A stretch of 64,000 bases of DNA from Pseudorhizobium banfieldiae (GTDB lineage Bacteria > Pseudomonadota > Alphaproteobacteria > Rhizobiales > Rhizobiaceae). Where the stretch lies: positions 4,085,501 through 4,149,500 of the forward strand of contig NZ_FO082820.1 of NCBI RefSeq assembly GCF_000967425.1, in the 5' to 3' direction. The notes beneath the pieces are model-generated. The model did no database searches and was not told where the DNA came from. It worked only from the letters and a program-made list of their open reading frames with translations. Both the position numbers and the translations under genes were made by a program. This document shows positions 2 through 18,974 of this stretch, piece by piece (positions within the stretch are counted from its first letter, which is position 1; every line of letters begins with the position of its first letter).

Positions 2-1174
2 TCGCCAGCTGGCGTCAAGGGTCTCGCTCTTGCTACAAAAGCACCTCTCTTCGTTCTCGACGCTGAGCTTCGTGCGGCCATACCTAGGACGCGAGGGCGT
101 GTGGTGAATCCCCTCGCCAACTCGCGCGATGTTCCCCTTGATGGGCATCCTTTTGAGTCTGTTGCTCTGTCAGCCTTTCTACGTTCCGCCTGGCAAGACT
201 CACGGTCTGGATCAACGATCATTTGCTCAGTAAAGTACCCTCCAGCGGCACGTCTTCAGAAGCCGGTTGGTCAGGAACGCCGTATCAGGTGGTTTGGAGC
301 GAGAGAGGTGGAAGTGCAGTTGCAAGGATACACATCACAGCAGTTGACGCTGGAACATGTCTATACGCGCGATGATCTAAGAAGAATATTTGGCATCATA
401 GACGCGACGCTCAACACAGGCGTATTTAGGCCGAAGGGAACGTCCTCGATCTGGCTTTTTATTACCGAGGAGAAGACATCGGATCGTACACAGTACCGCG
501 ATCGTCTCGAAGGACAGACCCTGTACTGGCAGGGACAATCATCAGGCCGCACCGATGCGCTCATTTTGGAACATCAGCCCCGCGGCCTCGAACTGTTGGT
601 CTTCTTCCGCAGGCGCAAATACGAACATCCCGGTGCCGGCTTCCGCTATCTTGGTCCATTCGCCTATGTCAGCCATTCTGGAAATTTCCCGACAAGCTTC
701 GTTCTAACGCGGCAAAGCCAGGAAATGGCTGCCATTCGCCCCGAGGACGCCGATGATGAGGCGTTCGATCCTTCCGGCGTGGATGATGCAAGGCAACGAG
801 TGCTGCGCTCCATTTCAAGGCGCCGGGGTCAACGTGCGTTTCGGGATGCTCTTATGAGCGCCTATGGGGGGCGCTGTGCGATGACTGGGTGCACTGTCGC
901 AGACGTCCTCGAGGCGGCGCACATTTATCCGTATCGCGGGACGGCGACGAACGCCCTGTCTAACGGGCTTCTCTTGCGGGCCGACCTGCACACGCTGTTT
1001 GATTGCGGCTTGATCGCCATCGACGCCATCTCAAGAACGATTCTGGTGTCGCCACGGCTAAAGAACAGCGAGTATGGTGAATTGCACGGCCGCAAACTGC
1101 GCTCACCGCAAACCTCGGCCCAATTGCCGGGTGAAGCGGTCCTCGATATGCACCGAGCTTCAGCAGGGCTTTAA
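2..1174 (+). CDS. HNH endonuclease with DUF3427-like N-terminal region, 5' end outside window
   Basis: Probable restriction endonuclease of the HNH superfamily. The C-terminal third has the HNH_2 pattern: Cys259 and Cys264 in RCAMTGC, then EAAHI, then SNGLLLRADLHTLFD (numbered from a GTG at 101). The region around residues 130-195, with YRDRLEG, LLVFFRRRKYE and FRYLGPFAYVS, resembles the DUF3427/SRA-like domains that often precede HNH nucleases and are thought to read DNA or modified bases. The frame is open back to base 2 with no stop, so the GTG at 101 is only a possible start and the gene may begin further left. It lies in a defence island, tail to tail with the restriction accessory genes. 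The substrate, and whether it cuts modified DNA, cannot be told from the sequence. Confidence 0.75.
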   Translation, partial: SPAGVKGLALATKAPLFVLDAELRAAIPRTRGRVVNPLANSRDVPLDGHPFESVALSAFLRSAWQDSRSGSTIICSVKYPPAARLQKPVGQERRIRWFGAREVEVQLQGYTSQQLTLEHVYTRDDLRRIFGIIDATLNTGVFRPKGTSSIWLFITEEKTSDRTQYRDRLEGQTLYWQGQSSGRTDALILEHQPRGLELLVFFRRRKYEHPGAGFRYLGPFAYVSHSGNFPTSFVLTRQSQEMAAIRPEDADDEAFDPSGVDDARQRVLRSISRRRGQRAFRDALMSAYGGRCAMTGCTVADVLEAAHIYPYRGTATNALSNGLLLRADLHTLFDCGLIAIDAISRTILVSPRLKNSEYGELHGRKLRSPQTSAQLPGEAVLDMHRASAGL

Positions 1175-1459: not shown

Positions 1460-2170
1460 TTAGTCGAAGTCGCGCAGCAGGTCGATGATCCCGCCTTTCG
1501 CGCCTCTGGCTCGGACGAAAATTGCAAGCCCCATTCCGGGCGCGTCCTCGTCTTCAACTGAGCGGCCGTTTTCTTCGCGCGTGTTGATGAGCCCGCGGCA
1601 GGTGTCGCTCAAATATTGTGCGACCAATTCCACGATTTCGCGCGGGCGGGCGTCAGGATTCTCGTCGAGATATCGAAACCACGCGTTGAAGAACATCACA
1701 TCGAGCGCCGTGCCATCGACGAAATCGGCAGCGTGTTGATAACCAGCCACCCAGCGAAGCTTCGGATCTCGCTCCAGAAGGAATGCCGCCAGTTCTTTCG
1801 TCCCGAATTCGCAGGCGCCGAGATAGACGCCACTCAAGGATCTTCTCGTGCCGCCCTCCAGCAGCATCTTGCTAAGCTTCTTCCGATCCACCACTTCCTC
1901 CCAGCCATGAAGGTGGAGACCATGCTCGTTGCCGTGGCATGCGAGGTAGATCGTTGAGATCTCCTTGTCCCAGGCCATTCGCTTGATTGCATCTGCTAGG
2001 GCAGGGGCTGTCGCGACCATCTCGTAGGTAAACTCATGAGTGTTGCCGAAGTGCAGGTCGCAGAGCATGTCGAACATCGGCTTCACCGATGCGTTCTTTC
2101 GCATCGATACGTCTTCGCCGTTCCACTTGCTCTCAATTACGGCGATGCCGGTCCTTGTGGTCTCTGACAT
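1460..2170 (-). CDS. Caspase/CHAT-like protease-fold protein, last gene of the type I RM operon
   Basis: A 236-residue protein of no family I can name firmly. The motif pattern fits a clan CD (caspase/CHAT-like) cysteine peptidase fold: hydrophobic strand plus His in IYLACHG (His79), then about 40 residues later a second strand plus Cys in GVYLGAC (Cys120). The following VAGYQ and FFNAWFRYL fit the next strand and helix of such folds. It has no signal peptide, so it is probably cytoplasmic. It is the last gene of hsdR-hsdM-hsdS-mrrN-like, 23 bp after the winged-helix gene, with AGGAG and AGGAAAG just upstream. The position suggests a guard or effector tied to restriction, but that role is inference and catalysis is unproven. 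Confidence 0.6.
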   Translation of the reverse strand: MSETTRTGIAVIESKWNGEDVSMRKNASVKPMFDMLCDLHFGNTHEFTYEMVATAPALADAIKRMAWDKEISTIYLACHGNEHGLHLHGWEEVVDRKKLSKMLLEGGTRRSLSGVYLGACEFGTKELAAFLLERDPKLRWVAGYQHAADFVDGTALDVMFFNAWFRYLDENPDARPREIVELVAQYLSDTCRGLINTREENGRSVEDEDAPGMGLAIFVRARGAKGGIIDLLRDFD

Positions 2171-2193
2171 AGCTTTCCTGCTCCTCGTTCAGA

Positions 2194-2442
2194 CTATTTG
2201 AGCACCCAGATGCCGCGCTTCGGGCTGATGATCGTTCCCTCCTGCCGCAATTGCCACCGGGCAAAGCGAACCTCCTTCTCGAACAGGTTTTCGCCATCGC
2301 TGGTGAGGCCCGAAAGGTCGGCTGCGGGCACCGCTTCGTTCTTCCGTATCCAGTCGTAGACAGTTTTTGGTGTCGACGGTCCGAGCGCAGTCAGGGCATT
2401 TTGCACCCAGCGGCAATAGGTGGCGCGAGAGGCGATGGGCAT
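2194..2442 (-). CDS. Stand-alone Mrr-N-like winged-helix protein
   Basis: An 82-residue protein matching in outline the Mrr N-terminal winged-helix domain, which in Mrr and related restriction enzymes precedes a nuclease domain. The typical elements are a helical N-terminus, VYDWIRKNE, a loop with GENLFEKEVRFARWQL, and the closing hairpin with GIIxP-like sequence, here GTIISPKRGIWVL. No nuclease domain follows: the frame stops after the wing. It starts 45 bp after hsdS and ends 23 bp before the caspase-like gene, so co-transcription is likely. It may supply DNA binding or control for its neighbour; this is inference. Confidence 0.65.
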   Translation of the reverse strand: MPIASRATYCRWVQNALTALGPSTPKTVYDWIRKNEAVPAADLSGLTSDGENLFEKEVRFARWQLRQEGTIISPKRGIWVLK

Positions 2443-5583: not shown

Positions 5584-8500
5584 TCAGGCGGCGGGCGGCG
5601 CCCAGATTGCCTCGTTGAAGGCGTACAGCACCTCATCGAGTGCACCGTCAAACTCCTGCGCGATGCGCTTGAAGCCGCCCTTGTCGGCAAAGGCGCCCTG
5701 GTCGAGCAGGGTCGGATCGGCCACGGGCTTGTCCTTCAGGGCACGACCGATACGGCGCAGCCATTCCTTCTGCTTTTGCGTCCAAGGCCTTGAGGCCTCG
5801 ATCTTGACGATGGCGTTGTCGACGCGGGTGGCATAGGGGATCAGCGGATCGCCCAAAGCTGCCTGCCGGACGAAGCCGATGATATGGGCCGCGATATCGG
5901 CATTGCGGGCGCGGCCGTAAGCGGCGCGCAGCATGGCCTCAGAATAGTTCTTCTCGTCCAGCAGGCCGGCGAGTTCGGAGAGTTCCTTGCGGGTGAGATC
6001 ACGCGGGCGCTGGGTGACGGCAATCAGCGCCGGGACCTGGTTCATGTTTTCACGAACGAAGCGTTCGAAGCCGGTAATATAATCCTCGGGCGTCGTGTTC
6101 TTGCCGAAGATCTCCTCGATGCGCAGCAGCTCGTCCTCATGGGTAGAGATGACCACGCCATCGTTCTTGTCCGTGGTCAGCGGGCGGCGTTCGAGCAGCT
6201 CGACGGCGCGCGGATGGTCCGTCAGCCACTGCTGCAACTCGGCACCGGAGCGGGTGGAGAGACGCTGCAGCGCCATGTCGGCGCTTTCGCCAGTGTGGCG
6301 CTCGAAGCTCTCGCGGGTCTCGGCATCCATGCGCTTCACCAGACTGCGCATGCGCACGATGACCTGGGCTGCGACCCAGCTCTTGTCCTCGTCCGTCTCC
6401 GCATTGTGCAGATCCGTGACGAGCTGGCCAAGCGCTATATCCGGTTTCACGACGACCGGGCGCATGTCGCTCATCTCCTGCAGCTCGGCGTATAGATCGA
6501 CGGCGTCAAAGATGCGGAAATGCTCCTTGCCGATCTCCGGGCAAAGCCGCGTGGCGCGGCCGATCATCTGGTCGTAGAGGATGCGGCTCTTGACCCTGCG
6601 GACGAAGACGAGATTGCAGATGGAGGGCACGTCGACGCCTGTTGTCAGCAGGTCGACGGTGACGACGTATTTCGGATAGGGATCATTCTTGAATTTCAGG
6701 ATCAGGTCGTCGGCCTTGTCGACATTGCCGGTGATCTTCGTGACCATGCCATGCGGCACGTTCTCCTTGCCGTACTCCTCCTGCAGTTCTTCGATCAGCA
6801 GGCGCACGATGTCATCGGCATGGGCATCCCGGGCGGCGAAGATCAGCGTCTTGCCAAGCTTCGACGGTGGGATCTCCGTGGCGATCGCACGGCAGACGAT
6901 GCGGTTGAATGCTTCCGAATAGACCCGCTTGTTAAAGTCGGCGAGGTCGTAATCGAGCGAAACTTCATCCGGCAGCTCGAAAAGATCAATCTGACCCGTC
7001 TTGCGGTCGATGATCTCGACTTCCGCGCCCCCATCGAAATGGATACCGGCTTCGGATAGCGCCGTGGTGATGCGCTTCGGCGGCAGATGGTCGTTGAGGT
7101 AACCTTCGACGACGGCCTGACGGTAGCCATAATGAAAGACCGGGTGGCCGAAGATCTCGCGGGTATGCAAAGCGGGTGTGGCCGTCAGCGCCACCTTCAC
7201 GGCATCGAAATAATCGAGGATCTGGCGATAAGCCGACTGGTAGTCATCGATGTTGCGGAAGCCGATATCGCTTTCGCGCAGTTCAGCATCCAGCGTGTAG
7301 CCGCGATGGGCTTCGTCGACGATGATGCAGTCGAAGGTGCCGGGCGTGGGGCGCTTGGCCGGATCCGGCTCGTTGAGGATGCGAGCGATCAGCGACTGGA
7401 CGGTCGCAACCTGTACCTGGTCCTCATCCTCCGGCAGTTTCTGCTCCAGCCCGGCGACCTTGTAGATCTGGGCGAAGTTCAGCATGCCCTCGATCTCGGT
7501 GGTCTCAAGCGCGTCGCTCGTCTGCTTGCCGAGCGCCTTGCGGTCGACCAGGAAGAGGATACGGCGGAAGCGCTTGTGCTTCAGCAGGCGATACATCAGG
7601 GCAATTGCTGTGCGTGTCTTGCCTGTGCCGGTCGCCATGGACACGAGGATGTCGCGCTGGCCCGCGACCACGGCATTCTCGATCGCGGCGATCGCCTCTT
7701 CCTGATAGGGGCGCATCCGGCCCTTGCCGAAACTCTCTCCTGCCAACCCTTGAGCGGCGGTGTCGACATCGGTGGTCAGCTTGTCGAGGAGATCCTTTGG
7801 CGAGAACCAGCTCGTCATCGGGACGGCGTGGTTGGTCTCGCGCCTCACATCACGATACCAGATCCCGGATTTTGTCACCCACTGGCGCACATAGGGTCGC
7901 CCATTGGTGGCGAAGACGAAAGGCACGCGGAAGGGCTCAGCGAGCCCATGTTTCCAAGGACCATCCGGATGGGCCTCTTCCGGGGCGAGCACGATGGTGC
8001 GGGCATAGCGCTCGGCCTGCTGCAGAGTGGAGGGCACATCGACGCTCTCGCGCTTGGCCTCGATGACACCGACGCAAGTCAGGCCGACGAAAAGGGCATA
8101 ATCCGCCCGGCCACCTTCCGAAGGCCATTCGGCGATTGCGAGATTGCGGCATTCCTCCGGTCGGGCGCCCTTTTGATAGGTCAGGCGGTCGCTGTCGGCT
8201 TCCCATCCGGCATCGATAAGCTGCACGTCGATAAGCCGTCGGGTCTGGCGTTCATCGAGCTCCAGGCTGCTCGCCGCTTTCAGGCCTGCCTGCTTGAACG
8301 CGATCTGCAACTGCTCGGGCTGGGCTTCGGCCGCCTTCTGCAACTCGGCAAGCTTGCGAGCGAGAGCTGCCTGATTGGCCTCCATCTCGACGGCGGTCTG
8401 CTCCCAGACGGCACTGTCGGCTGACGCCTGGCGAGCGAGCTCTTCGGCAGCGGCGCGGGCTTTTGCGAGGTCTTCCGTCGAGGCATGGGCCGCCGCTAGT

Positions 8501-8991
8501 TTCTCCTCGGCGTCTCTGACCTGGGCACGCAGCGCTGCCAGTTCCGCCTGGGTCGCCTGGTCAATATCCGCAGAGGCTCGGGGCGGCACAAAGGGACCAG
8601 GCTTGAACCCCGGATCACGCCCATAGGTTCGGCGGTACCAGACGCCGAGCGCGCGGCAGAACTTGAGCGCCGCGAGCGCTTCGGCGGGTGAGTCGGCCAG
8701 ATTGTGGGTCGCTTCGTTGCCGCTCTTGCGAATGGCATGGAAGATGTCGGCGACTTCGCGCGGCAGAACCTGCTGCGTCGCGAGGCGCCGAAGAAGGTCG
8801 TTTGTTGTCTCGCGTGCGGCGGGATCATAAACGCTGGAAAGGGCGGCGATCTCCTTGACCATGTATTCGCCGAACTGGCGGCTCTTGATCAGCGAGGTAT
8901 TGGCATCCTCGGCGAAAAAGCGCTCGGCTAGCGTGCCGAGGCGATGCAACTCAGGGCTAAGCGATTGCAGATGATCAAAGTTTGATGACAT
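5584..8991 (-). CDS. hsdR: Type I restriction endonuclease and translocase subunit HsdR (EcoEI-like)
   Basis: The motor and nuclease subunit: it uses ATP to pull DNA and cuts unmodified DNA away from the target. It has 1135 residues. Order: a DUF4145-like helical domain (about 1-130), an Ala/Glu-rich coiled coil (about 145-235), a PD-(D/E)xK nuclease core with Asp297 in GRADYAL and Glu311-Ala-Lys313, then SF2 helicase with Walker A ATGTGKT (453-459) and DEAH (559-562), and an EcoEI-type C-terminal region. It is first in the leftward operon. The DUF4145 plus coiled coil at the N-terminus makes it longer than a minimal HsdR. All key motifs appear intact. Confidence 0.95.
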   Translation of the reverse strand: MSSNFDHLQSLSPELHRLGTLAERFFAEDANTSLIKSRQFGEYMVKEIAALSSVYDPAARETTNDLLRRLATQQVLPREVADIFHAIRKSGNEATHNLADSPAEALAALKFCRALGVWYRRTYGRDPGFKPGPFVPPRASADIDQATQAELAALRAQVRDAEEKLAAAHASTEDLAKARAAAEELARQASADSAVWEQTAVEMEANQAALARKLAELQKAAEAQPEQLQIAFKQAGLKAASSLELDERQTRRLIDVQLIDAGWEADSDRLTYQKGARPEECRNLAIAEWPSEGGRADYALFVGLTCVGVIEAKRESVDVPSTLQQAERYARTIVLAPEEAHPDGPWKHGLAEPFRVPFVFATNGRPYVRQWVTKSGIWYRDVRRETNHAVPMTSWFSPKDLLDKLTTDVDTAAQGLAGESFGKGRMRPYQEEAIAAIENAVVAGQRDILVSMATGTGKTRTAIALMYRLLKHKRFRRILFLVDRKALGKQTSDALETTEIEGMLNFAQIYKVAGLEQKLPEDEDQVQVATVQSLIARILNEPDPAKRPTPGTFDCIIVDEAHRGYTLDAELRESDIGFRNIDDYQSAYRQILDYFDAVKVALTATPALHTREIFGHPVFHYGYRQAVVEGYLNDHLPPKRITTALSEAGIHFDGGAEVEIIDRKTGQIDLFELPDEVSLDYDLADFNKRVYSEAFNRIVCRAIATEIPPSKLGKTLIFAARDAHADDIVRLLIEELQEEYGKENVPHGMVTKITGNVDKADDLILKFKNDPYPKYVVTVDLLTTGVDVPSICNLVFVRRVKSRILYDQMIGRATRLCPEIGKEHFRIFDAVDLYAELQEMSDMRPVVVKPDIALGQLVTDLHNAETDEDKSWVAAQVIVRMRSLVKRMDAETRESFERHTGESADMALQRLSTRSGAELQQWLTDHPRAVELLERRPLTTDKNDGVVISTHEDELLRIEEIFGKNTTPEDYITGFERFVRENMNQVPALIAVTQRPRDLTRKELSELAGLLDEKNYSEAMLRAAYGRARNADIAAHIIGFVRQAALGDPLIPYATRVDNAIVKIEASRPWTQKQKEWLRRIGRALKDKPVADPTLLDQGAFADKGGFKRIAQEFDGALDEVLYAFNEAIWAPPAA

Positions 8992-9714: not shown

Positions 9715-12700
9715 GTGAGTGACATCCACGAAGACGTAATGAGAAACTGTCGCACGGATCGTCTTTCGGCTGCGCGGCGCCTACTTGACAATATCTTGAA
9801 TCGAAACGGGCTGGACAGCCCCAATGGACAGCCCATCTACAAATATCGGATTTCGCGCGCCGAATTCGACCGGGGCCGTCAACTCCTGGAGATGTCGTCG
9901 GCTTTGCTAGATCGGCGCAACATCCCACTTTGTGCGGTTTTCGCTCTTGTGACGTCGGAATGGTACAGGCGGGAGGCCAAGTCACTATGGCGGGTTTGGT
10001 CGCATATTGGCGTCGTTCCTGATGCGTTGACCGTCAACGAGCGAAACGACGTTGCAGATGTTGGGCTCTCGTGGTGGGGTCAATCGCCGAAGATCAGCCG
10101 TTCCTTCAGGAGGAGGCGGCGCGAGTTCTTGTTGACGCTTGCTTTGAACGGCGGGCTGCCATCTTCACTTATCGTTGGCGAGACGGGTAATCGGGTTCGA
10201 CGGTACTTTCTGGGTGTGATGGAGGATGCGCTTTCACGCGGCTCCTTGCCCACCTACAACGAAATAGTGGACTATGCGGAAAGTAACGCTGGCTTTCTCC
10301 CCGAAAGCTACCGGGACGAGACCATCTATGAGCTTACGGCAGAGCTAATCGGGCATCTACACGCTTGCCGGAAAAAACTGCCTCCCGGCGAAACCCAGAC
10401 GAATCCTGCAGGGTGGCTCGATGTCCATGATGCCGGTTGGCGAGAGCGTCTCCCAATTCACCTCCCGGAGGATGTTGCCGCCTGCAATCGCCTCTTCAAC
10501 AACCTCCTTACGGTGGCCCCTCGCGCACGAGGGGGCGGCATCGGGCTCGCAAGATATCTTTATCGTGATCTCTCCGGCGCCTGGAAACAAGGATTTGTCG
10601 CACAAGCGGATGGCGAACTCGCCTTCGATGCGCTCGCAAACTTCACCGAGGGCCGCTTTCGTGCCTACTTTGCTGGACGCGCGGGGCAGCTCATGTCTCG
10701 TGAGTTCGCGCACGTTTACCGCTCGGAAACCGAAAGCAACGGAAACTTCACAGTCACGTCGCAAGCTATTGGTCGTCTTGACCTGATTGGCCCAGTGCCT
10801 TTCTCGGAAGCCATTGCCGTAAACCTGGTCCGCGATGGGATGGCGATCCCGGCAGTCTGCTGGCCTGGCGGTTCGCAGCGCGTTTCAAACTGCCTCGTCC
10901 TCCGGCCAACCGATCGCGAGGATCGCCTAGAATTGCTCGCTACCGGCTCCCTTCGCTCGACTCTGCCTTGCCTATTCGTGCTGACGCCGAAGGGCTCGAC
11001 TGTGTCGGGTCATGAGGGGGGAGAAGCTACGCGGATCTGGAATGATAGCACATGGCAGCTCTGGCGAATCGAGGGAATGGCGCTCGTAGTCACGCCAGGC
11101 GGCGAGCGCTACCGGATCGAATCGGCAGCCAATACATCCGACGATAGACGTTTGGAACTCAATCAGCTCTTCCATCCAGATCTGGTTTTCGAGGACACCT
11201 CGCTAGTCGCGGTTGAGGCTCCGTTAAACCTTCGCCAGTTCAGCGCAGACGGTGGTGCGACCTCGAACGGTGTCATTCGCGTTTTGAAGTCCGGTCAACC
11301 GATCGCTGCACGAGACGAAGTGTCTGGCGTCGTGACGGTCCAATGGCAAGACGATGAAGGGTTCATCATTGATCGCGGTCGTCTGCTCGTGTTGCCAAGA
11401 AATTTCGAGCTGCGCGGTCAGATTGACAGCGGTGGGGCACGGGTCGAGTGGCACGAATTGCCGGGTTGGCGGATTGACGCCCTTGCTAGTGACGGCACTG
11501 TCACGACGACCACGGACAGGACCGAGTACGGATGGCTCTGTCCTTGGAGTGGGACGAGGAACGGGTACCAGCGAATACAGCTTACAGATCCGCACGGCTC
11601 CACCATCAAAGCACGACTGCGTCTAACGGCAAAACAAACCGTGTTGCTTGACGCTGAGGGAAAGGTCCGTACCGATCAACCACAAATGTCGCTCGCCGAA
11701 CTTCGCGGCTCTCTTTTGCTTACCAGTCGACCAGTACTCATCGATCTTGATCTGCGGGGTGCGGGGGCCAATCGTGCACTGATATCCCGGAGGATTGAAG
11801 GCGAAACACCAATGGTTCGCTTTGGTGACCTTGCGCAAAGCCTTCTGGGGCTATCGGCCGAACGCGGCCCAAGTGTCTGCCTGCTTGATGACAGTCACCG
11901 AACAATCTGCAGCATTCGCCGGCCACAAGAGCAACCGTCAATCCTTCACGATCAAATTGAGTTCGCGCGGCCGCTGGCCGAGGGCGAGCTCACAGTGGTA
12001 AGATCACTACAATGCCCCGACGAAGAACACGTACTCGGGGACCAAGATCAACTGATCCCTCGACTGCTTGACAAAGTTCCTGGACCGCTTCTCCTCTACA
12101 GGAGGAAGGGCGACGCAGTTACGACGCGCCCGACCGTGATTTCCGGGGCGCAGGATGCTGTTCCTGAAGAGGCTCTCGACGCGATCGCGCGCGCTGCGGT
12201 CATACAGGATGAAGCACTCCGTCGTCGCGCCTATCACGCCTTACTAAGTGGCGCCGCGAACAACCCTGCCGCCGGCTCCACAATTTCCCGTATCTTGCGC
12301 ACGATCCATTCATTGCGAGGCCTTAGTCCCCGCGCATTGGACATCACTCGGGAGCTCCCGCACTTTCCGAACTTACTGTGCCGCTTGCTCCTTGCCGCCA
12401 ACAGCGAGCGCGTCGAAAGCATAGTCGCGCTAGAGCGCGACCTCCCATTCCTCTGGATGGCGCTGAACGTCAACTCCTGGCGCGACGCAGCACTTGCAGA
12501 ATGGGAGCGTGCGAAGGAAGACTTTGCGCAATTCTATGATGCGAAGGACGCGCAGTCACAGGCTAGTGCATTAATGAAGGAGCGGATTGACTTTCTCGTC
12601 GAACGTACCCAGTGGTTTGCAGGAATACGTGCTGCCTTGGGCTTTAGCAGCGAACTGAGAAGCGACTTACGTCAACTTGCTCAAGAGCACGTCCGCCTTC

Positions 12701-12954
12701 AAGTAGATCAATCGGATCCCATTGCGACCGCCCTGATCAACGAGGCGGAAAAGGCTGGACTTCCCGCGGATATTGCAACCCTCAACTACCATCACTACGC
12801 GACCCTCGTCGCACCCGTCGTGCTCGCGGCTGTCGCGAGTGGACGCATCGAGTGGTCGCCCGCCGTTGCAGCGGGTCTGCGCAACGCGCTAGACATCGAT
12901 CACAACTACATCAGTGCCGCCTTCCCTCATTGTTTGCAGCGATTCCAATCATGA
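9715..12954 (+). CDS. Druantia type III-like protein DruH (STY4851/ECs_5259-like)
   Basis: A 1079-residue protein without a classical catalytic motif that I can see. Its size, its position directly before a giant DUF1998-type helicase, and its general make-up (helical N-terminal half, then a beta-rich region around residues 380-720, then a helical C-terminus) fit the DruH component of two-gene Druantia type III anti-phage systems. The GTG start is preceded by GAGGCAGAG; an ATG eight codons later is an alternative. The stop overlaps the next start in ATGA, so the two products are probably made together. Assignment to DruH is by context and partial recognition; the molecular role is unknown. 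Confidence 0.6.
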   Translation: MSDIHEDVMRNCRTDRLSAARRLLDNILNRNGLDSPNGQPIYKYRISRAEFDRGRQLLEMSSALLDRRNIPLCAVFALVTSEWYRREAKSLWRVWSHIGVVPDALTVNERNDVADVGLSWWGQSPKISRSFRRRRREFLLTLALNGGLPSSLIVGETGNRVRRYFLGVMEDALSRGSLPTYNEIVDYAESNAGFLPESYRDETIYELTAELIGHLHACRKKLPPGETQTNPAGWLDVHDAGWRERLPIHLPEDVAACNRLFNNLLTVAPRARGGGIGLARYLYRDLSGAWKQGFVAQADGELAFDALANFTEGRFRAYFAGRAGQLMSREFAHVYRSETESNGNFTVTSQAIGRLDLIGPVPFSEAIAVNLVRDGMAIPAVCWPGGSQRVSNCLVLRPTDREDRLELLATGSLRSTLPCLFVLTPKGSTVSGHEGGEATRIWNDSTWQLWRIEGMALVVTPGGERYRIESAANTSDDRRLELNQLFHPDLVFEDTSLVAVEAPLNLRQFSADGGATSNGVIRVLKSGQPIAARDEVSGVVTVQWQDDEGFIIDRGRLLVLPRNFELRGQIDSGGARVEWHELPGWRIDALASDGTVTTTTDRTEYGWLCPWSGTRNGYQRIQLTDPHGSTIKARLRLTAKQTVLLDAEGKVRTDQPQMSLAELRGSLLLTSRPVLIDLDLRGAGANRALISRRIEGETPMVRFGDLAQSLLGLSAERGPSVCLLDDSHRTICSIRRPQEQPSILHDQIEFARPLAEGELTVVRSLQCPDEEHVLGDQDQLIPRLLDKVPGPLLLYRRKGDAVTTRPTVISGAQDAVPEEALDAIARAAVIQDEALRRRAYHALLSGAANNPAAGSTISRILRTIHSLRGLSPRALDITRELPHFPNLLCRLLLAANSERVESIVALERDLPFLWMALNVNSWRDAALAEWERAKEDFAQFYDAKDAQSQASALMKERIDFLVERTQWFAGIRAALGFSSELRSDLRQLAQEHVRLQVDQSDPIATALINEAEKAGLPADIATLNYHHYATLVAPVVLAAVASGRIEWSPAVAAGLRNALDIDHNYISAAFPHCLQRFQS

Positions 12955-15900
12955 CAATCCGCCCATTCGACACCCTATCGCGCCTTCGTCAGCGGATGGC
13001 TGAAGCCATCGTCGCCCGGTCGGGCGTACGAAATCCAGCACTGACCGCGCAGCTTCGTCAGACTTTGTCACAAGCGGACACCGGAGGCGCCCTAATCCCA
13101 CCTCCAATCCTAGAGGGGGCATTCCCGTTTATTCCGGCGGACGAAGTGCTCGCAGACCTTTCTGGCAACCTCCTAGCAAGCGCGACCGTTGACGCGCTGG
13201 TGGGAGACGACTCCGGACGCGGCTATTCATTCCCCCGGCAGCGGCGCCCTTACCGACACCAGCTACATGCTTGGCAAGCGCTAAATTCTTCCGAGATCAA
13301 AAGCGCGTTGATCACTGCCGGAACCGGTTCCGGGAAGACCGAGTGCTTTCTTGTTCCTGTTTTGGATTCCCTCTACCGACGCCAAGAGCGCTCAGAAGGC
13401 GTTGAAGCAATAATGCTTTATCCGTTAAACGCGCTCATCGCCAGTCAACAAGAGCGACTCGACGCCTGGACCAAGCCATCAGGCGGCAGAATTCGCTATT
13501 GCCTTTACAATGGCAACCTTCCGGAGACACACACGAGCCTAGTTCAACGCGACAAGCTGTCATCAAACCCGCAACAGGTGCCAGATCGCAAGACGTTGCG
13601 TTGGTCTCCTCCTCCTCTGCTCGTCACTAACCTCACAATGCTCGAATACATGCTCGTTCGTCCCCAGGACCGGCCGATCATCGATCAGTCGAAGGGCAAG
13701 TTGAAGTGGATCATTCTCGACGAGGCCCACACCCTGGTCGGGTCTGCAGCCGCCGAAGTGGCGCTTCTCTTGCGACGGGTGATCGAAGCATTCGAGGTTG
13801 ATCCAAAAACCGTTCGGTTTGTTGCAACGTCTGCAACAATCGGCGACGGCCCGAAGGTCAAAGAAGACCTACGCCGGTTCTTGGCAGATGTAGCCGGCAC
13901 AGAAGTTTCGACTGTCGAGGTAATTTCTGGCGACCGGCTTCTTCCGACCCGGAGCGGAAAGGGCGGACAAGCTCCCAGTCCTTCCGCGATGATCGACCTT
14001 CCTGCAGCCGATCTCTTCGACAAGCTCTCGTCTCACGATCCTGTCTGGTCGCTGGTGGCGGGATTGAAAGATCAGCCCTTACAGACACAGCAGCTCGACC
14101 GCCTTGGAAGAGCGATGGGCGTCGACGGCGAGACTCTTGCAATGGCGCTGACGCGAGCGACGTCCAGATCCGGCGAGACGCTGGCGCCGCTTAGGGTTCA
14201 CAGCTTTCATCGCGCGTTCTCCGGTCTCTGGTGCTGCACAAACCCGGCTTGCCCCGATAGCCTAGGCGGAGAATGGGCTGCCGGACGCCTTCTATTCGAA
14301 CGAGACGAAGCGTGCCCGAAGTGCCACATGCCGGTCGCGGAACTTTATTCCTGCAATGAATGCGGTGAAGCATTTATGATTGCGGACGAGAAGGGTAAGC
14401 GGCTCGCCCCCCCTCGGAACCTGCCTCCGAATGACGAGTTTTTGTTCGAAGCCGATCGTTCCGCGTCGGATGACGACGAGGTGAATGCCGATGAAAAGCT
14501 TGATTTAGACACGCCCACCATCGCGCACTGCTTTTCTCTGTCGGGCCGCGGTCTCATGCCAATCTTCGTGGACACGGCGACCGGCATGACTGCGGATGGA
14601 GACGGTGAACGTCGATACCGACTATCCGCTCATCCTGGCGGAGGTAAAGGCCCCTGCCCGGGCTGCGGCGCGACGGCGAAATCCGGAGACAAACTCTATC
14701 CTTTCAGGTTCGGAGCTCCGTTCACGATCAGCAACGCCGCCCCCATGCTTCTCGAAGCGATGCCGCCGGCGGAAGGATTGGTGCAGCCCTCCCTGCCTCA
14801 GACCCCTCCGGATCTTCCCACCGGCGGTCGCCAGCTAATCAGCTTCACGGATAGCCGCCAAGGGACGGCACGCATGGCGGCGAAGCTTCAGATGGAGAGC
14901 GAGCGAGCCTTCGTGCGCTCCTTCATCTATCAGGTGGTTCAACACAAAGCTTCAGGTAGTGGGGACAACGGGAAGGCTGAAGAGCTCAAAGCCAGGATTG
15001 CGAAGGTGGCGTCCTATCCGGATTGGGAGGACGGGCCACTTAAGAACGTAGTTCGCGAGGCCGAGGAGCAATTGGCGAAGCTGTCGGGCGGCGGCAGCAT
15101 CCCCTGGAGCGACTTACGGGCTCAGCTTGCTGAGCGCACTGAAGTCCGCGACTGGCTTCCTGACGTCTGGGGATCTCGTGCGGACCTCTTCAAGAAAGCT
15201 GCGGCCTCGGCACCTTCTCAGATTGCTGAAGCATTGCTTCTTCGAGAAATGATGCGAAGGCCGAAGCTGGCCAACTCGCCGGAGACGATGGGTCTTGCGA
15301 GATTTGTCTTTCCAGGGATCGAGAAGCACGCCCAGGCGCCGAGCGGCTTCCTGCAACGTGGTGGGAGCCTTGAGGATTGGAAGGCTTGGCTTACGTGTTT
15401 GGTAACTTTTTCCATCCGAAGCAACCTAGCGGTAGCCGTCAATTCGGACCTGCTTCAGTGGATCATGCGTAAAGGCTTCCCGAAAACGCTTGCCTCGCCT
15501 GGTATGGAACCGGGTAGGCGGCAGCTTCGCTGGCCGGCAGCCAGCGCCGCGGGAAAGCAGCCTCAAGTCGTTGAACTCCTCCGGCTCGGCCTCGGCCTGA
15601 ACGTTGGTTCCTCGAGCGATCGTGCGGAAATTAATGACTGGCTCCAGAAGGCGTGGAATCAGCTGCACACCCTGTTTCCTAAGAACGCCAACGGCGAGCA
15701 GGCACTGGATTTCGACAAGCTTGAGGTCGGACCGTTGAGGAACGCGTTTCGCTGCCCGGTCACTAGGCGAATTGTGGATGTCGCGCCCTTCGGTCTCTCA
15801 CCGTATGCGCGGACAAAGGTGGATCGCCCGCAGCCGATTACCATGCCGGTCGCCCCGGCGGATGCCGACACCGCCACCCGAACCCTGTTCCTGTCGGAAG

Positions 15901-18900
15901 ATACCGATGTTGCTGCTCTGAGAGACAGCGGTCTCTGGACCGACATGCATGATCGTATCGCACTGTACTCGCCATACAGCCGGTCTGCCGAGCATTCGGC
16001 GCAGCTCTCTTCACGCCACCTGCGGCATTACGAGTCCGAATTCAAGGCGGGCCGGATCAACCTCCTCAATTGCTCCACCACCATGGAAATGGGGGTAGAC
16101 ATCGGCTCGGTGAATGGGGTGTTGATGGCAAACGTGCCGCCATCGATCGCAAACTATAAGCAGCGGGTAGGTCGCGCTGGTCGACGCGGTCAACCGCTGT
16201 CGCTCGCGTTCACTTTTGCGAAGGACCGCCCGCTAGACCGCGAGGCGTTCCGCGATCCTGTTGCATTCTTGAGCAGGTCTATAGCAGCCCCTCGCGTGGC
16301 GCTAGACAGCCGACCGATCGTGCAGCGCCATGTCAACGCGTTACTTTTTGGTCGCTTTCTAAATCTGAACAGCGGCAATCCCCTAAGCATGGAGACAGGT
16401 GACTTCTTCGGCTTTCCCGCTGCGCCTAACTCAGTGCGCGCTGCGAAAGATGCCCGACCGATTGAGTTGATGCTGAGGTGGCTCGCAAAGGCCACGACGG
16501 CAGAAGAGAATAAGGTCGCACTGCAGCGGTTGGTCCGTGGATCGGTATTGGCTGGCCGTGATGACCTTCTGGACCAATGTGCTGAAGCTCTCAAATCAGC
16601 GGAGACTGAGTTCGAAACCGAGTGGAGCGGGCTGCAAAGTCAGTTTCAGGGAGCCGATATCATAGGCGCTTCAGCCGCGATCGAGGCTCATCTCAAGAGG
16701 CTTTGCAAGGAATTCTTGCTGGCCGATCTTGCAGACCGTGGCTTCTTGCCAGGCCATGGATTCCCAAATCATGTCGTGGCCTTCGAGCTTGATCGAAATG
16801 ACTTGCAGGGCGAATTGAACAACGATGACCGCAGAGGGCGTCGCCACGGGGGCCCGAAGAGACCGCTCGACATCGCGATCAGGGACTATGCTCCAGGATC
16901 GGAGACTGTCGTCGATGGGCAAGTCTATCGCGTCGGCGGCGTCACACTGAATTGGCATCGCCCTTCGAGCGATGACGGCGTCCGCGAAGTTCAAGCACTC
17001 CGTTGGGCCGCCAGGTGCTCTCATTGCGGCGACAACTGGACGGGCGCCGGTTCAAGGCCTGAAGAATGCAGGACATGCGCAGACCCGTCAATTGTTGCTG
17101 AAAGTTTCCTCAAGCCGGCCGGGTTTTTAAGGGACCGGCACGCCCCAGTGCATGCCGAAGTCGAAAATGTGGATTTCATTCGCGCCGAAGCACCACGGAT
17201 CTCAGCCGGCGCGTCCCGCTGGGAGGCCCTCAGCCAACCTACGACAGGTCGGTTCAGAGTGAATCGTCGGGGAACGGTCTACTATCACACACGAGGACAA
17301 AATAACGAAGGGTACGGTCTTTGCTTGCGATGCGGTCGCATGGAAGCGATGAAACCCGGCGAAACAATCTGCACGGGCCTCATAGACCACAAGCCTCTGC
17401 GCGCGCGCGAAAACTTTCTACAGCCGTGCGAGGGCAACAGCGAAACCTTCGCTGTCCAGCATTCGTTACATCTCGGGTACGAAATTTACACCGACGTTTT
17501 GGAGCTGCAGCCTGCTCGATCTCCAGAAATCGGGGCCGCCAATGCGATTGCAATTGCGATACGCGAGGCCACTGCGCGACACCTAGGAATCGAACCAGAG
17601 GAAATGGGCTACAGCATCGGACCATCCAGGAACGCCATGGCTACATCGACCCTCTCGATTTTTCTTCATGACCGAGCAGCCGGCGGTGCCGGCTATGTCG
17701 TTCAGGCTGCCAACGAGATGCGCGCGATTCTACGTAGCGCGCGACGAATCTTAGACTGCCCACGCGACTGCGCACACGCCTGCTCATCTTGCGTACTGGT
17801 GTCTGACGCTCCGGAAAGAGAAGAAGATCTAGATCGACACAAGGCAATCTCTTTCCTTGACACCCATCTGTCCCTACCAGACGTCATCGACGTCGCTGAC
17901 GCCTTCGCTGCGGAAAGCGACGTGTCCGACCGACCTCTCAGCGAGATTGATGATTGGCTCAGCCATCGAGCAGGCTCCGAACTCCATGTCTGGACTGGCG
18001 TGAATGACATTGTGGAGCTTTCGGACTGGGCTTTTACGCCACTGTTCAAAAGGTGGACCGACAACGGTCGGCGCGTCAGCCTAATCCTTCCTAGCGACTT
18101 CGTATCGTCCCTGGACGCGGCTCAAGTGCTATTCCTGCGCGACTACTGCACCCGCAACGGGCTTGATGTGGCTGAAGGTGAACCGAAGCGATTCAACAAT
18201 GGCGGATACCTTTTCGCTTACGCCACAGATGGGACGAAAGGACGTGGGTGGGCAAGTCGAGACGAGACCGTGCTGATGGCAGGTCCTGGTTGGGGAGCAA
18301 CGCATGCTGCGCCAATTGCTCATGCACCCGTCGTTCTCTCTCCCAAATACCGAGAGATATCGCTCCAGGAGCTCAAGCCTAGGTCGGGAGCTGCCGTTGT
18401 TGTACTTGGCTCCGGCCTTGAGGGCCCCATTGCCGATTTTGGCGCTTCCATGGCCAGGAAGATAAGGGATGCGATGGTTAAATGTGGCGTCGCAACCGCG
18501 GACCTGGTGATCAGAGCAAACTACCAGGATAGATACGCGCGATCGCCACTCGTCCTAAAACTGCTGGTCGACACAGTAGCATCACTTAACTCCACTGGCG
18601 CACCTTCGCTCTCGATCCTAACGGCGCCCGACCGCAGCGGCTATTCTCGAACACATATAGCTTCCGACATTATATCCGACGTCGTGCTGGCTGATCTGGC
18701 GCGAAACTACGCAGCTAACAAAGGATTTGAGGCGGAGCTGTCGGTCGGCCAACTGCCACATAAGCGCAGTCTCAGCCTTCACATGCAATCTGGCACCACA
18801 ATGATCGTGGATCTCGACCAAGGGTTTGGCTGGCTCGAGTACAACGGAAGAGAAAGATTCTTTGACGCCAACGGCTCAACGCAACGAAACACAGAGTGGC

Positions 18901-18974
18901 TGCGGAAGCTAATGGGGCAGGTAAAACGCCGCAACGCATATGACAGCCAGATGGTGTTGTGGCAGAAAACATAG
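12951..18974 (+). CDS. Druantia-type giant DEAH helicase DruE-like with MZB/DUF1998 domain
   Basis: A 2007-residue SF2 helicase; the ATG at 12951 overlaps the previous stop. The N-terminal motor has Walker A AGTGSGKT (123-130) and DEAH (257-260), followed by TSATIG; the second RecA half carries MEMGVDIG and QRVGRAGRRGQ. Several Zn-ribbon-like Cys pairs lie at CPKCH, CNECG, CSHCG and CLRCG, and the MZB (DUF1998) cysteine cluster CPRDCAHACSSC is near residue 1600. About 380 residues follow; PHKRSLSL plus a downstream G-W stretch faintly recalls a phospholipase D-like end, but no second motif is convincing. DruE is the shared protein of Druantia systems and is thought to act on phage DNA. Confidence 0.8.
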   Translation: MTIRPFDTLSRLRQRMAEAIVARSGVRNPALTAQLRQTLSQADTGGALIPPPILEGAFPFIPADEVLADLSGNLLASATVDALVGDDSGRGYSFPRQRRPYRHQLHAWQALNSSEIKSALITAGTGSGKTECFLVPVLDSLYRRQERSEGVEAIMLYPLNALIASQQERLDAWTKPSGGRIRYCLYNGNLPETHTSLVQRDKLSSNPQQVPDRKTLRWSPPPLLVTNLTMLEYMLVRPQDRPIIDQSKGKLKWIILDEAHTLVGSAAAEVALLLRRVIEAFEVDPKTVRFVATSATIGDGPKVKEDLRRFLADVAGTEVSTVEVISGDRLLPTRSGKGGQAPSPSAMIDLPAADLFDKLSSHDPVWSLVAGLKDQPLQTQQLDRLGRAMGVDGETLAMALTRATSRSGETLAPLRVHSFHRAFSGLWCCTNPACPDSLGGEWAAGRLLFERDEACPKCHMPVAELYSCNECGEAFMIADEKGKRLAPPRNLPPNDEFLFEADRSASDDDEVNADEKLDLDTPTIAHCFSLSGRGLMPIFVDTATGMTADGDGERRYRLSAHPGGGKGPCPGCGATAKSGDKLYPFRFGAPFTISNAAPMLLEAMPPAEGLVQPSLPQTPPDLPTGGRQLISFTDSRQGTARMAAKLQMESERAFVRSFIYQVVQHKASGSGDNGKAEELKARIAKVASYPDWEDGPLKNVVREAEEQLAKLSGGGSIPWSDLRAQLAERTEVRDWLPDVWGSRADLFKKAAASAPSQIAEALLLREMMRRPKLANSPETMGLARFVFPGIEKHAQAPSGFLQRGGSLEDWKAWLTCLVTFSIRSNLAVAVNSDLLQWIMRKGFPKTLASPGMEPGRRQLRWPAASAAGKQPQVVELLRLGLGLNVGSSSDRAEINDWLQKAWNQLHTLFPKNANGEQALDFDKLEVGPLRNAFRCPVTRRIVDVAPFGLSPYARTKVDRPQPITMPVAPADADTATRTLFLSEDTDVAALRDSGLWTDMHDRIALYSPYSRSAEHSAQLSSRHLRHYESEFKAGRINLLNCSTTMEMGVDIGSVNGVLMANVPPSIANYKQRVGRAGRRGQPLSLAFTFAKDRPLDREAFRDPVAFLSRSIAAPRVALDSRPIVQRHVNALLFGRFLNLNSGNPLSMETGDFFGFPAAPNSVRAAKDARPIELMLRWLAKATTAEENKVALQRLVRGSVLAGRDDLLDQCAEALKSAETEFETEWSGLQSQFQGADIIGASAAIEAHLKRLCKEFLLADLADRGFLPGHGFPNHVVAFELDRNDLQGELNNDDRRGRRHGGPKRPLDIAIRDYAPGSETVVDGQVYRVGGVTLNWHRPSSDDGVREVQALRWAARCSHCGDNWTGAGSRPEECRTCADPSIVAESFLKPAGFLRDRHAPVHAEVENVDFIRAEAPRISAGASRWEALSQPTTGRFRVNRRGTVYYHTRGQNNEGYGLCLRCGRMEAMKPGETICTGLIDHKPLRARENFLQPCEGNSETFAVQHSLHLGYEIYTDVLELQPARSPEIGAANAIAIAIREATARHLGIEPEEMGYSIGPSRNAMATSTLSIFLHDRAAGGAGYVVQAANEMRAILRSARRILDCPRDCAHACSSCVLVSDAPEREEDLDRHKAISFLDTHLSLPDVIDVADAFAAESDVSDRPLSEIDDWLSHRAGSELHVWTGVNDIVELSDWAFTPLFKRWTDNGRRVSLILPSDFVSSLDAAQVLFLRDYCTRNGLDVAEGEPKRFNNGGYLFAYATDGTKGRGWASRDETVLMAGPGWGATHAAPIAHAPVVLSPKYREISLQELKPRSGAAVVVLGSGLEGPIADFGASMARKIRDAMVKCGVATADLVIRANYQDRYARSPLVLKLLVDTVASLNSTGAPSLSILTAPDRSGYSRTHIASDIISDVVLADLARNYAANKGFEAELSVGQLPHKRSLSLHMQSGTTMIVDLDQGFGWLEYNGRERFFDANGSTQRNTEWLRKLMGQVKRRNAYDSQMVLWQKT

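Follow-up and report, generated by a model that had tools for sequence, protein, structure and literature searches.

The type I restriction operon studied here, in Pseudorhizobium banfieldiae, ends in a gene for a 236-residue protein that we read, at a probability of roughly 0.55, as a caspase/CHAT-fold anti-phage effector occupying a variable cargo slot for second-line defence. The operon lies in a stretch of 64,000 nucleotides (the window) of a genome of 4.58 Mb in three contigs. The computed base of this reading consists of the predicted fold of the protein, its invariant His79 and Cys120, its operon-like position and the known defence modules that fill related slots.

Architecture of the operon and its surroundings

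The core of the operon, hsdR, hsdM and hsdS, was identified by both Pfam and PADLOC (Table 1). A reading of the sequence alone had placed open reading frames for proteins of 82 and 236 residues directly after hsdS on the same strand of a type I restriction-modification operon; coordinates, strand and operon type all hold. On the minus strand the order is hsdR, hsdM, hsdS, the 82-residue gene and the 236-residue gene, after which a convergent HNH_2/DUF3427 gene follows. The gaps are short, 45 nt from hsdS to the 82-residue gene and 23 nt between the two small genes, and purine-rich stretches lie upstream of both of their starts. No promoter-like site was found on the minus strand between positions 1000 and 9800, a result that says little because the whole scan gave just one site where 2.2 are expected by chance.

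The operon belongs to a wider island of defence genes. Druantia type III genes (9715-18974) diverge from hsdR, and on the other side, left of the window and before the HNH_2/DUF3427 gene, stands a UvrD-type helicase gene that is GajB-like (L023:8006-9940, plus strand; PADLOC E 4.4e-20). The helicase and HNH_2/DUF3427 genes possibly form a defence unit of two genes, with a resolvase gene still further to the left of the helicase gene.

Table 1 Features of the operon, its surroundings and one compared locus (window positions unless a locus is given)
Feature	Position	Strand	Basis
hsdR, type I restriction subunit, 1135 aa, EcoEI_R_C type with DUF4145 start	5584..8991	-	PF08463, PF04851, PF13643; PADLOC REase_I E 2e-247
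hsdM, N6-adenine methyltransferase, 511 aa	3969..5504	-	PF02384 E 7.2e-74; PADLOC MTase_I
hsdS, type I specificity subunit, 494 aa	2488..3972	-	PF01420 E 3.6e-35; PADLOC Specificity_I
Stand-alone Mrr_N winged-helix protein, 82 aa	2194..2442	-	Mrr_N PF14338 above cut-off
Caspase/CHAT-like protein, 236 aa, predicted clan CD cysteine protease	1460..2170	-	predicted fold, invariant His/Cys
His79 codon, predicted catalytic	1934..1936	-	35/35 rows in each of two sets; directly past predicted strand 73-77
Cys120 codon, predicted catalytic nucleophile	1811..1813	-	35/35 rows in each of two sets; directly past predicted strand 114-117
HNH_2/DUF3427 gene, convergent; operon neighbour, not member; frame open at left edge of the window	2..1174	+	PF13391, PF11907
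Druantia type III DruH	9715-12954	+	PADLOC E 6.6e-146
Druantia type III DruE	frame 12852-18974	+	PADLOC DruE3 E 0
ZorA, ZorB of G052	L060:4260-7376	-	PADLOC E 2.5e-266 and 2e-88

Predicted fold and active site of the 236-residue protein

The caspase/CHAT fold carries a conserved His-Gly and a later Cys, each placed after a core strand. The sequence-only reading had pointed to such a pattern in the motifs IYLACHG (His79) and GVYLGAC (Cys120), both present in the protein, and two alignments support it. In A3, which joins the window protein with 34 of its 36 profile-search relatives (the fragments P0015 and P0052 were excluded), His79 and Cys120 are invariant; in a second set of 35 rows, made of the window protein, the proteins of 11 other loci and 23 of the 36 relatives in the source list of A3, both residues are again kept by every row and Gly80 by 34 of 35. 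Judged from these alignments, the two motifs are more than chance.

The predicted structure agrees. A caspase-like fold spans the whole 236-residue domain, and both structure comparisons returned SAVED-CHAT (PDB 8tl0) as the top match with caspases next; the model is weak, of moderate confidence, over its first 50 residues. His79-Gly80 and Cys120 each follow a predicted core strand, as in clan CD. We therefore describe the protein as a predicted caspase/CHAT-fold cysteine protease.

Family profiles are nearly silent on the protein itself and speak faintly for its relatives. It scores above no Pfam cut-off for any protease family and has no match at E <= 1 to CHAT (PF12770) or DUF6642 (PF20347), while CHAT is matched weakly by 6 of 35 relatives (best E 0.025) and DUF6642 by 14 of the 35 members of A3 at E <= 1. 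No family of PADLOC-DB 2.0 matches it at E <= 1, NCBIfam gave no meaningful match, and a sequence-only search of solved structures returned nothing usable for the 236-residue protein, the 82-residue protein or the A3 profile (best E 0.27). The protein is a single domain, with no SAVED domain in Pfam at E <= 1, and neither it nor the 82-residue protein shows a tRNA anticodon nuclease domain in Pfam, PADLOC or NCBIfam.

A variable cargo slot in related operons

HsdR proteins of the same lineage (E <= 1e-100) occur in 13 of 247 family genomes, our own included; with G316, whose HsdR is 78% identical, they give the 14 operons examined here. Gene calls at these and all other compared loci come from an open-reading-frame script with a GC-position rule, not from a gene finder. 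The cargo of the 14 operons comprises Mrr (4), PtuA/PtuB (2), McrB (1), a GmrSD_N-SLFN protein (1, in G032) and a caspase-like protein (2, in the window and in G038). Complete Mrr was recognised by Pfam in G316 and G024, and in G204 and G163 by 66-68% identity to the Mrr of G316, the frames there being open. G163 also holds PtuA and PtuB, both by PADLOC; in G108 a PtuB (PADLOC) goes with an ATPase (Pfam AAA_21), and 8xMP and DUF4357 genes stand between hsdM and hsdS. The mcrB-like gene of G124 is accompanied by an mcrC match, and G024 has in its slot a T5orf172 gene, which we take to be of the GIY-YIG type. In G052 a gene without family and a weakly NucS_C-like gene precede ZorA/ZorB, which lie 1.9 kb behind hsdS. 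The slot genes of G113, G046 and G174 have no family (the G174 contig ends soon after hsdS), and G116 shows nothing recognisable over the 0.9 kb nearest to hsdS. The wider pattern is that of a variable slot for defence cargo, in or behind the type I operons of this lineage.

The contents of the slot may also have been exchanged. P0052, a protein of 116 residues from a 304-kb contig, is 76% identical to residues 159-232 of the window protein, and its residues 54-116 are 62% identical to the C-terminal tail of the G163 Mrr; this hybrid frame looks like an apparent scar of exchange between caspase-like and Mrr cargo. No Mrr remnant was found in the window itself (tblastn with the G316 Mrr, E <= 1e-3). 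Behind the slot Mrr of G204 stands a convergent HNH gene that is 30% identical over 142 residues to the HNH gene of the window.

Two further kinds of slot gene were noticed. The cargo genes behind hsdS in G046 and G204 (198 and 219 residues; L058:8800-9393, plus strand, and L055:8489-9145, minus strand) are 53% identical to each other, share GLCGxYSIxN and HWSVV motifs and match nothing in Pfam or PADLOC. By eye they resemble papain-type cysteine proteases; if this is true, a second protease fold occupies the same hsd slot. A small gene without Pfam family (L054:9430-9918, plus strand; L055:7933-8421 and L018:9759-10328, minus strand; 61-83% identical) precedes Mrr in the hsd slot of G024 and, immediately, in that of G204, and in G037 it adjoins a stand-alone Mrr_N-like gene; by eye, its product seems related to the beginning of the McrB-like protein found in G207.

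The 82-residue Mrr_N protein

That the smaller protein is an Mrr-N-like winged helix without nuclease, as read from sequence, is borne out: it scores 31.3 bits against Mrr_N PF14338 (cut-off 29.5; E 2.2e-7), and Pfam finds no Mrr_cat nuclease domain in it or in the 236-residue protein. At E <= 0.001, similar genes occur in 11 of 394 family genomes; five of these, our own among them, have a close copy (E < 1e-38). Close copies stand behind hsdS in the window and in G316, where a complete Mrr nuclease occupies the slot that holds the caspase-like gene in the window. G368 has an Mrr_N-like fragment behind hsdS. In G152 and G049 the gene adjoins acyl-CoA dehydrogenase-like genes, apart from hsd genes, and in G037, again with no hsd context, it adjoins a 189-residue gene that is 61% identical to the small hsd-slot gene of G024 and G204. 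Two stand-alone Mrr_N-like genes from two genera (L019:9998-10246, minus strand; L020:10001-10249, plus strand) are 96% identical and lie far from restriction genes, each next to an acyl-CoA dehydrogenase-like gene.

Among plasmids, the 82-residue query matched four, at 38-40% identity. One match falls inside an McrB-like ATPase, before mcrC; the other three are alike and come from Paracoccus, and the one that was read lies where nothing is annotated, ahead of an AAA ATPase gene and mcrC.

Caspase-like genes in other genomes

With the A1 profile (16 close rows) the caspase-like gene was found in 2 of 394 family genomes and in 1 of 45 genomes of the genus of the window, two sets in which distant members were possibly missed because of this narrow profile; with the wider A3 it was found in 4 of 397 genomes of the order, 4 of 385 of the class and 2 of 90 of a large genus. 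These samples overlap, and our own genome is counted in all but the 90-genome set. No relative of A1, A2 or A3 was found in viral contigs, and none in phage records. Searching plasmids with the 236-residue protein gave one distant relative, and two other queries recovered the same plasmid gene; a DUF6642 query gave one plasmid gene of Brevibacterium, preceded at 1.3 kb by a gene of the abortive-infection family.

We read the surroundings of the gene at 11 other loci, namely the genome-search finds together with R. tropici and plasmid pRphaN841a. By our own reading and as a raw count, seven are near defence genes; three of these adjoin restriction or methylase genes and a fourth has one within about 6 kb. 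G038 has a complete hsdR-hsdM-hsdS operon in which the caspase-like gene is embedded after hsdR: 9 nt separate it from hsdR, and it shares 10 nt with hsdM, the next gene. In G577 the caspase-like gene follows, at a distance of 765 nt, a methylase gene that we take for a type III mod, and the contig ends 153 nt after the caspase-like gene. The R. tropici protein is 79% identical to that of the window. Its gene is followed after 615 nt, on the same strand, by an mcrB-like gene and mcrC; the opposite flank carries, on the other strand, two methylase genes, a weak third candidate and a gene for a PLD-type nuclease, and type I genes are absent from the 20.7 kb read there. Elsewhere, a type III res gene lies 5.8 kb away on the opposite strand (G881), patatin and SMODS cyclase (CBASS) genes 1.6 kb away (G1216), an OLD/GajA-like ATPase gene 71 nt downstream (G1208) and a TIR gene 4.4 kb away (G1059). 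No defence neighbour was recognised by eye at the chromosomal loci of G645, G455 and G862, nor in the annotation of pRphaN841a; these four of 11 loci imply that the family has a life outside restriction, perhaps outside defence.

Some neighbourhoods are shared. An unassigned protein (342 and 421 residues, 69% identical over 334 residues; L016:1787-2815, plus strand, and L068:9615-10880, minus strand) is encoded directly beside the caspase-like gene on two distant branches, downstream in one and upstream in the other, and is a possible second partner of it. In two genomes of one family the caspase-like gene (L029:9989-10654, plus strand; L030:9977-10645, minus strand) has a common chromosomal neighbourhood, by eye with acetolactate synthase and ketol-acid reductoisomerase genes, and has perhaps been domesticated.

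The sequence-only reading had proposed a survey of whether both genes recur near hsdRMS. For the caspase-like gene recurrence stands, with a second type I operon (G038) and the type III-like mod of G577; for the pair it does not, none of the 11 other loci (8-21 kb read per locus) having an Mrr_N match at E <= 1 near the caspase-like gene. On these 11 loci we reject Mrr_N and caspase-like protein as the conserved unit. The R. tropici genome as a whole gave no Mrr_N match either, which shows little for one genome searched without a positive control. Because the small gene is shared by none of the 11 loci, and G316 and other genomes with it lack the protease, neither gene needs the other. Among metagenome proteins, P0001 and P0016 both come from contigs of 2603 bp, and P0010 and P0021 both from contigs of 9791 bp; these equal sizes are a hint of two further Mrr_N/caspase-like pairs.

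A maximum-likelihood tree of 35 rows, in which four rows (G881 included) carry a restriction-modification label, requires four changes of that label, at least three of them forced by well-supported branches; several end branches are long. All 500 of 500 shuffles scored as low, so the label shows no excess clustering, and its scatter rules out a single restriction-associated clade. Restriction settings are thus scattered over the family and do not go back to a single ancestor, a pattern compatible with repeated recruitment as well as with mere clustering in islands.

Proposed mechanism and alternatives

In the mechanism that we propose, the protease would stay silent in a healthy cell until infection activates it, the likeliest trigger being a phage that carries modified DNA or that evades or inhibits the restriction enzyme. 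Once active it would cut a single protein or a few, of the cell or of the phage, with dormancy, death or a proteolytic cascade as the outcome. The 82-residue winged helix may, more weakly, be a DNA-reading or adaptor chain that links an effector to the HsdS end, the linked effector then differing between operons: the protease in the window, the full Mrr nuclease in G316. A defence protease carried as operon cargo would probably act abortively, and the cell suicide and the parallel with PrrC suggested by the sequence-only reading may apply. Coupling to restriction and a sensor role of the Mrr_N protein are likewise inferred. In its most specific form, this coupling would make the caspase-fold protease a guard of type I restriction: in a variable effector slot of one hsdRMS lineage, a winged-helix reader acting in trans (the solo Mrr_N protein) would be paired with a protease where relatives have an Mrr nuclease, and sensing of DNA state or of restriction failure would lead to proteolysis, not to DNA cutting; we put this forward tentatively and think it rather unlikely.

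We favour an anti-phage effector because the fold matches SAVED-CHAT, the His/Cys pair is invariant and relatives show weak CHAT and DUF6642 matches; because defence genes neighbour the caspase-like gene in G038, G577, R. tropici, G1208, G1216 and G1059 and the operons of the lineage carry defence cargo; and because of the exchange-like P0052 hybrid and an island with Druantia III and a GajB-like helicase. Against it, the linkage to type I genes consists of the starting locus and one other genome, four loci lie outside defence settings, the tree is scattered, the pair is found in no other locus read, and the R. tropici protein has neither type I genes nearby nor an Mrr_N match. The strongest rival is an independent passenger of the defence island: the gene would encode a defence or stress protease in its own right, near hsdS through clustering and co-transcription. 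The close relative in R. tropici, with no Mrr_N gene or adjacent type I genes, the loci, on chromosomes and on a plasmid, where no defence gene was recognised, and restriction settings no more clustered on the tree than in shuffles all speak for such a passenger, as does the sharing of the slot by Septu, Mrr and McrBC modules, which act on their own elsewhere. The 9-nt gap and 10-nt overlap in G038 nevertheless favour joint expression, embedding alone being no proof of joint function, and we regard a passenger as possible, on the unlikely side.

Other alternatives concern the two proteins themselves. A catalytically dead scaffold with a caspase fold would sit well with the moderate confidence of the first 50 model residues, but a dead enzyme is not expected to keep His79 and Cys120 both invariant in very distant relatives, which makes this the least probable alternative of all. 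The adjacency of the two genes, 23 nt apart with the small partner first, recalls a toxin-antitoxin or zymogen pair, in which the 82-residue protein would either keep the protease inactive or serve as its substrate, the toxin being freed by loss or cleavage of this small partner; such a pair is very unlikely, since none of the 11 other caspase-like loci carries the small gene, and the small gene occurs without protease in G316 and elsewhere. Rather than a sensor, the 82-residue protein could be a transcriptional regulator of the operon. It is a small stand-alone winged helix, copies of it lie far from restriction genes (G152, G049), and RptR offers the precedent of a small repressor of type I operons (PMC12255303). 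RptR is, however, encoded first and upstream, as that source describes, while the 82-residue gene comes late in the operon and not at a promoter, and the Pfam family Mrr_N is the DNA-binding part of Mrr nucleases; a regulator seems doubtful to us. An anti-phage effector stays the reading that we prefer.

Comparison with known systems

A His/Cys pair is what the caspase/CHAT fold leads one to expect, an expectation at the level of the fold rather than a comparison with the residues of SAVED-CHAT itself. SAVED-CHAT, known from type III CRISPR and CBASS (PDB 8tl0), shares with the window protein this fold, as its top structural match, and an anti-phage context; the window protein differs in having 236 residues and one domain without SAVED, and type I restriction, Druantia and HNH/helicase genes as neighbours. 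The SAVED-CHAT protease is described as giving anti-phage immunity through a proteolytic cascade (PMC11229360), and caspase-like proteases as effectors in type III CRISPR, CBASS, gasdermin and Thoeris immunity (PMC11229360, PMC12799240). Proteins of DUF6642 (PF20347) are distant relatives by profile search with the same invariant His and Cys, although the window protein itself has no PF20347 match at E <= 1; none of the papers in the literature searched, whose scope excludes most subscription journals, names DUF6642. Hachiman and Avs are cited as unrelated immune systems that recurrently acquire protease modules, but the proteases there are trypsin-like and activate a nuclease proenzyme, and restriction goes unmentioned in the main text of that paper (PMC12799240).

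The mrr gene belongs to the immigration control region of K-12. Similarly, the slot of our lineage also holds Mrr, McrB and GmrSD_N proteins, while in the window it holds a solo Mrr_N domain and a caspase-like protein; the 82-residue protein resembles the N-terminal winged helix of Mrr (type IV), whose complete form stands behind hsdS in 4 of 14 loci, whereas the operon of the window has no Mrr_cat nuclease. The enteric immigration control region is reported to have variable defence genes next to the restriction genes of the host, and in some strains GmrSD takes the place of McrBC (PMC12707154). Accessory genes in type I operons are described as guardians (PrrC), toxin systems (DarTG2) and type IV restriction (TgvAB) (PMC12707154, PMC11411939, PMC12255303). 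PrrC, which according to PMC12707154 acts when the restriction enzyme is inhibited, is like our gene an accessory effector in or directly behind a type I operon (the window; hsdR-gene-hsdM-hsdS in G038), but is a tRNA anticodon nuclease where the window has a predicted protease. TgvAB (GmrSD-like) and DarTG2 are likewise second-line cargo inside hsd operons (PMC12255303, PMC11411939); they are a type IV restriction pair and a toxin-antitoxin system, with no caspase-fold protein. None of the matches listed in our literature searches ties a caspase-like protease to a restriction-modification operon. Second defences embedded in type I operons are already known, and the caspase-fold cargo is the element that is new relative to those listed matches; should the link be functional, it would give restriction systems a backup that works by proteolysis, and a likely fold and active site could be assigned to a family that Pfam covers in part, as a domain of unknown function.
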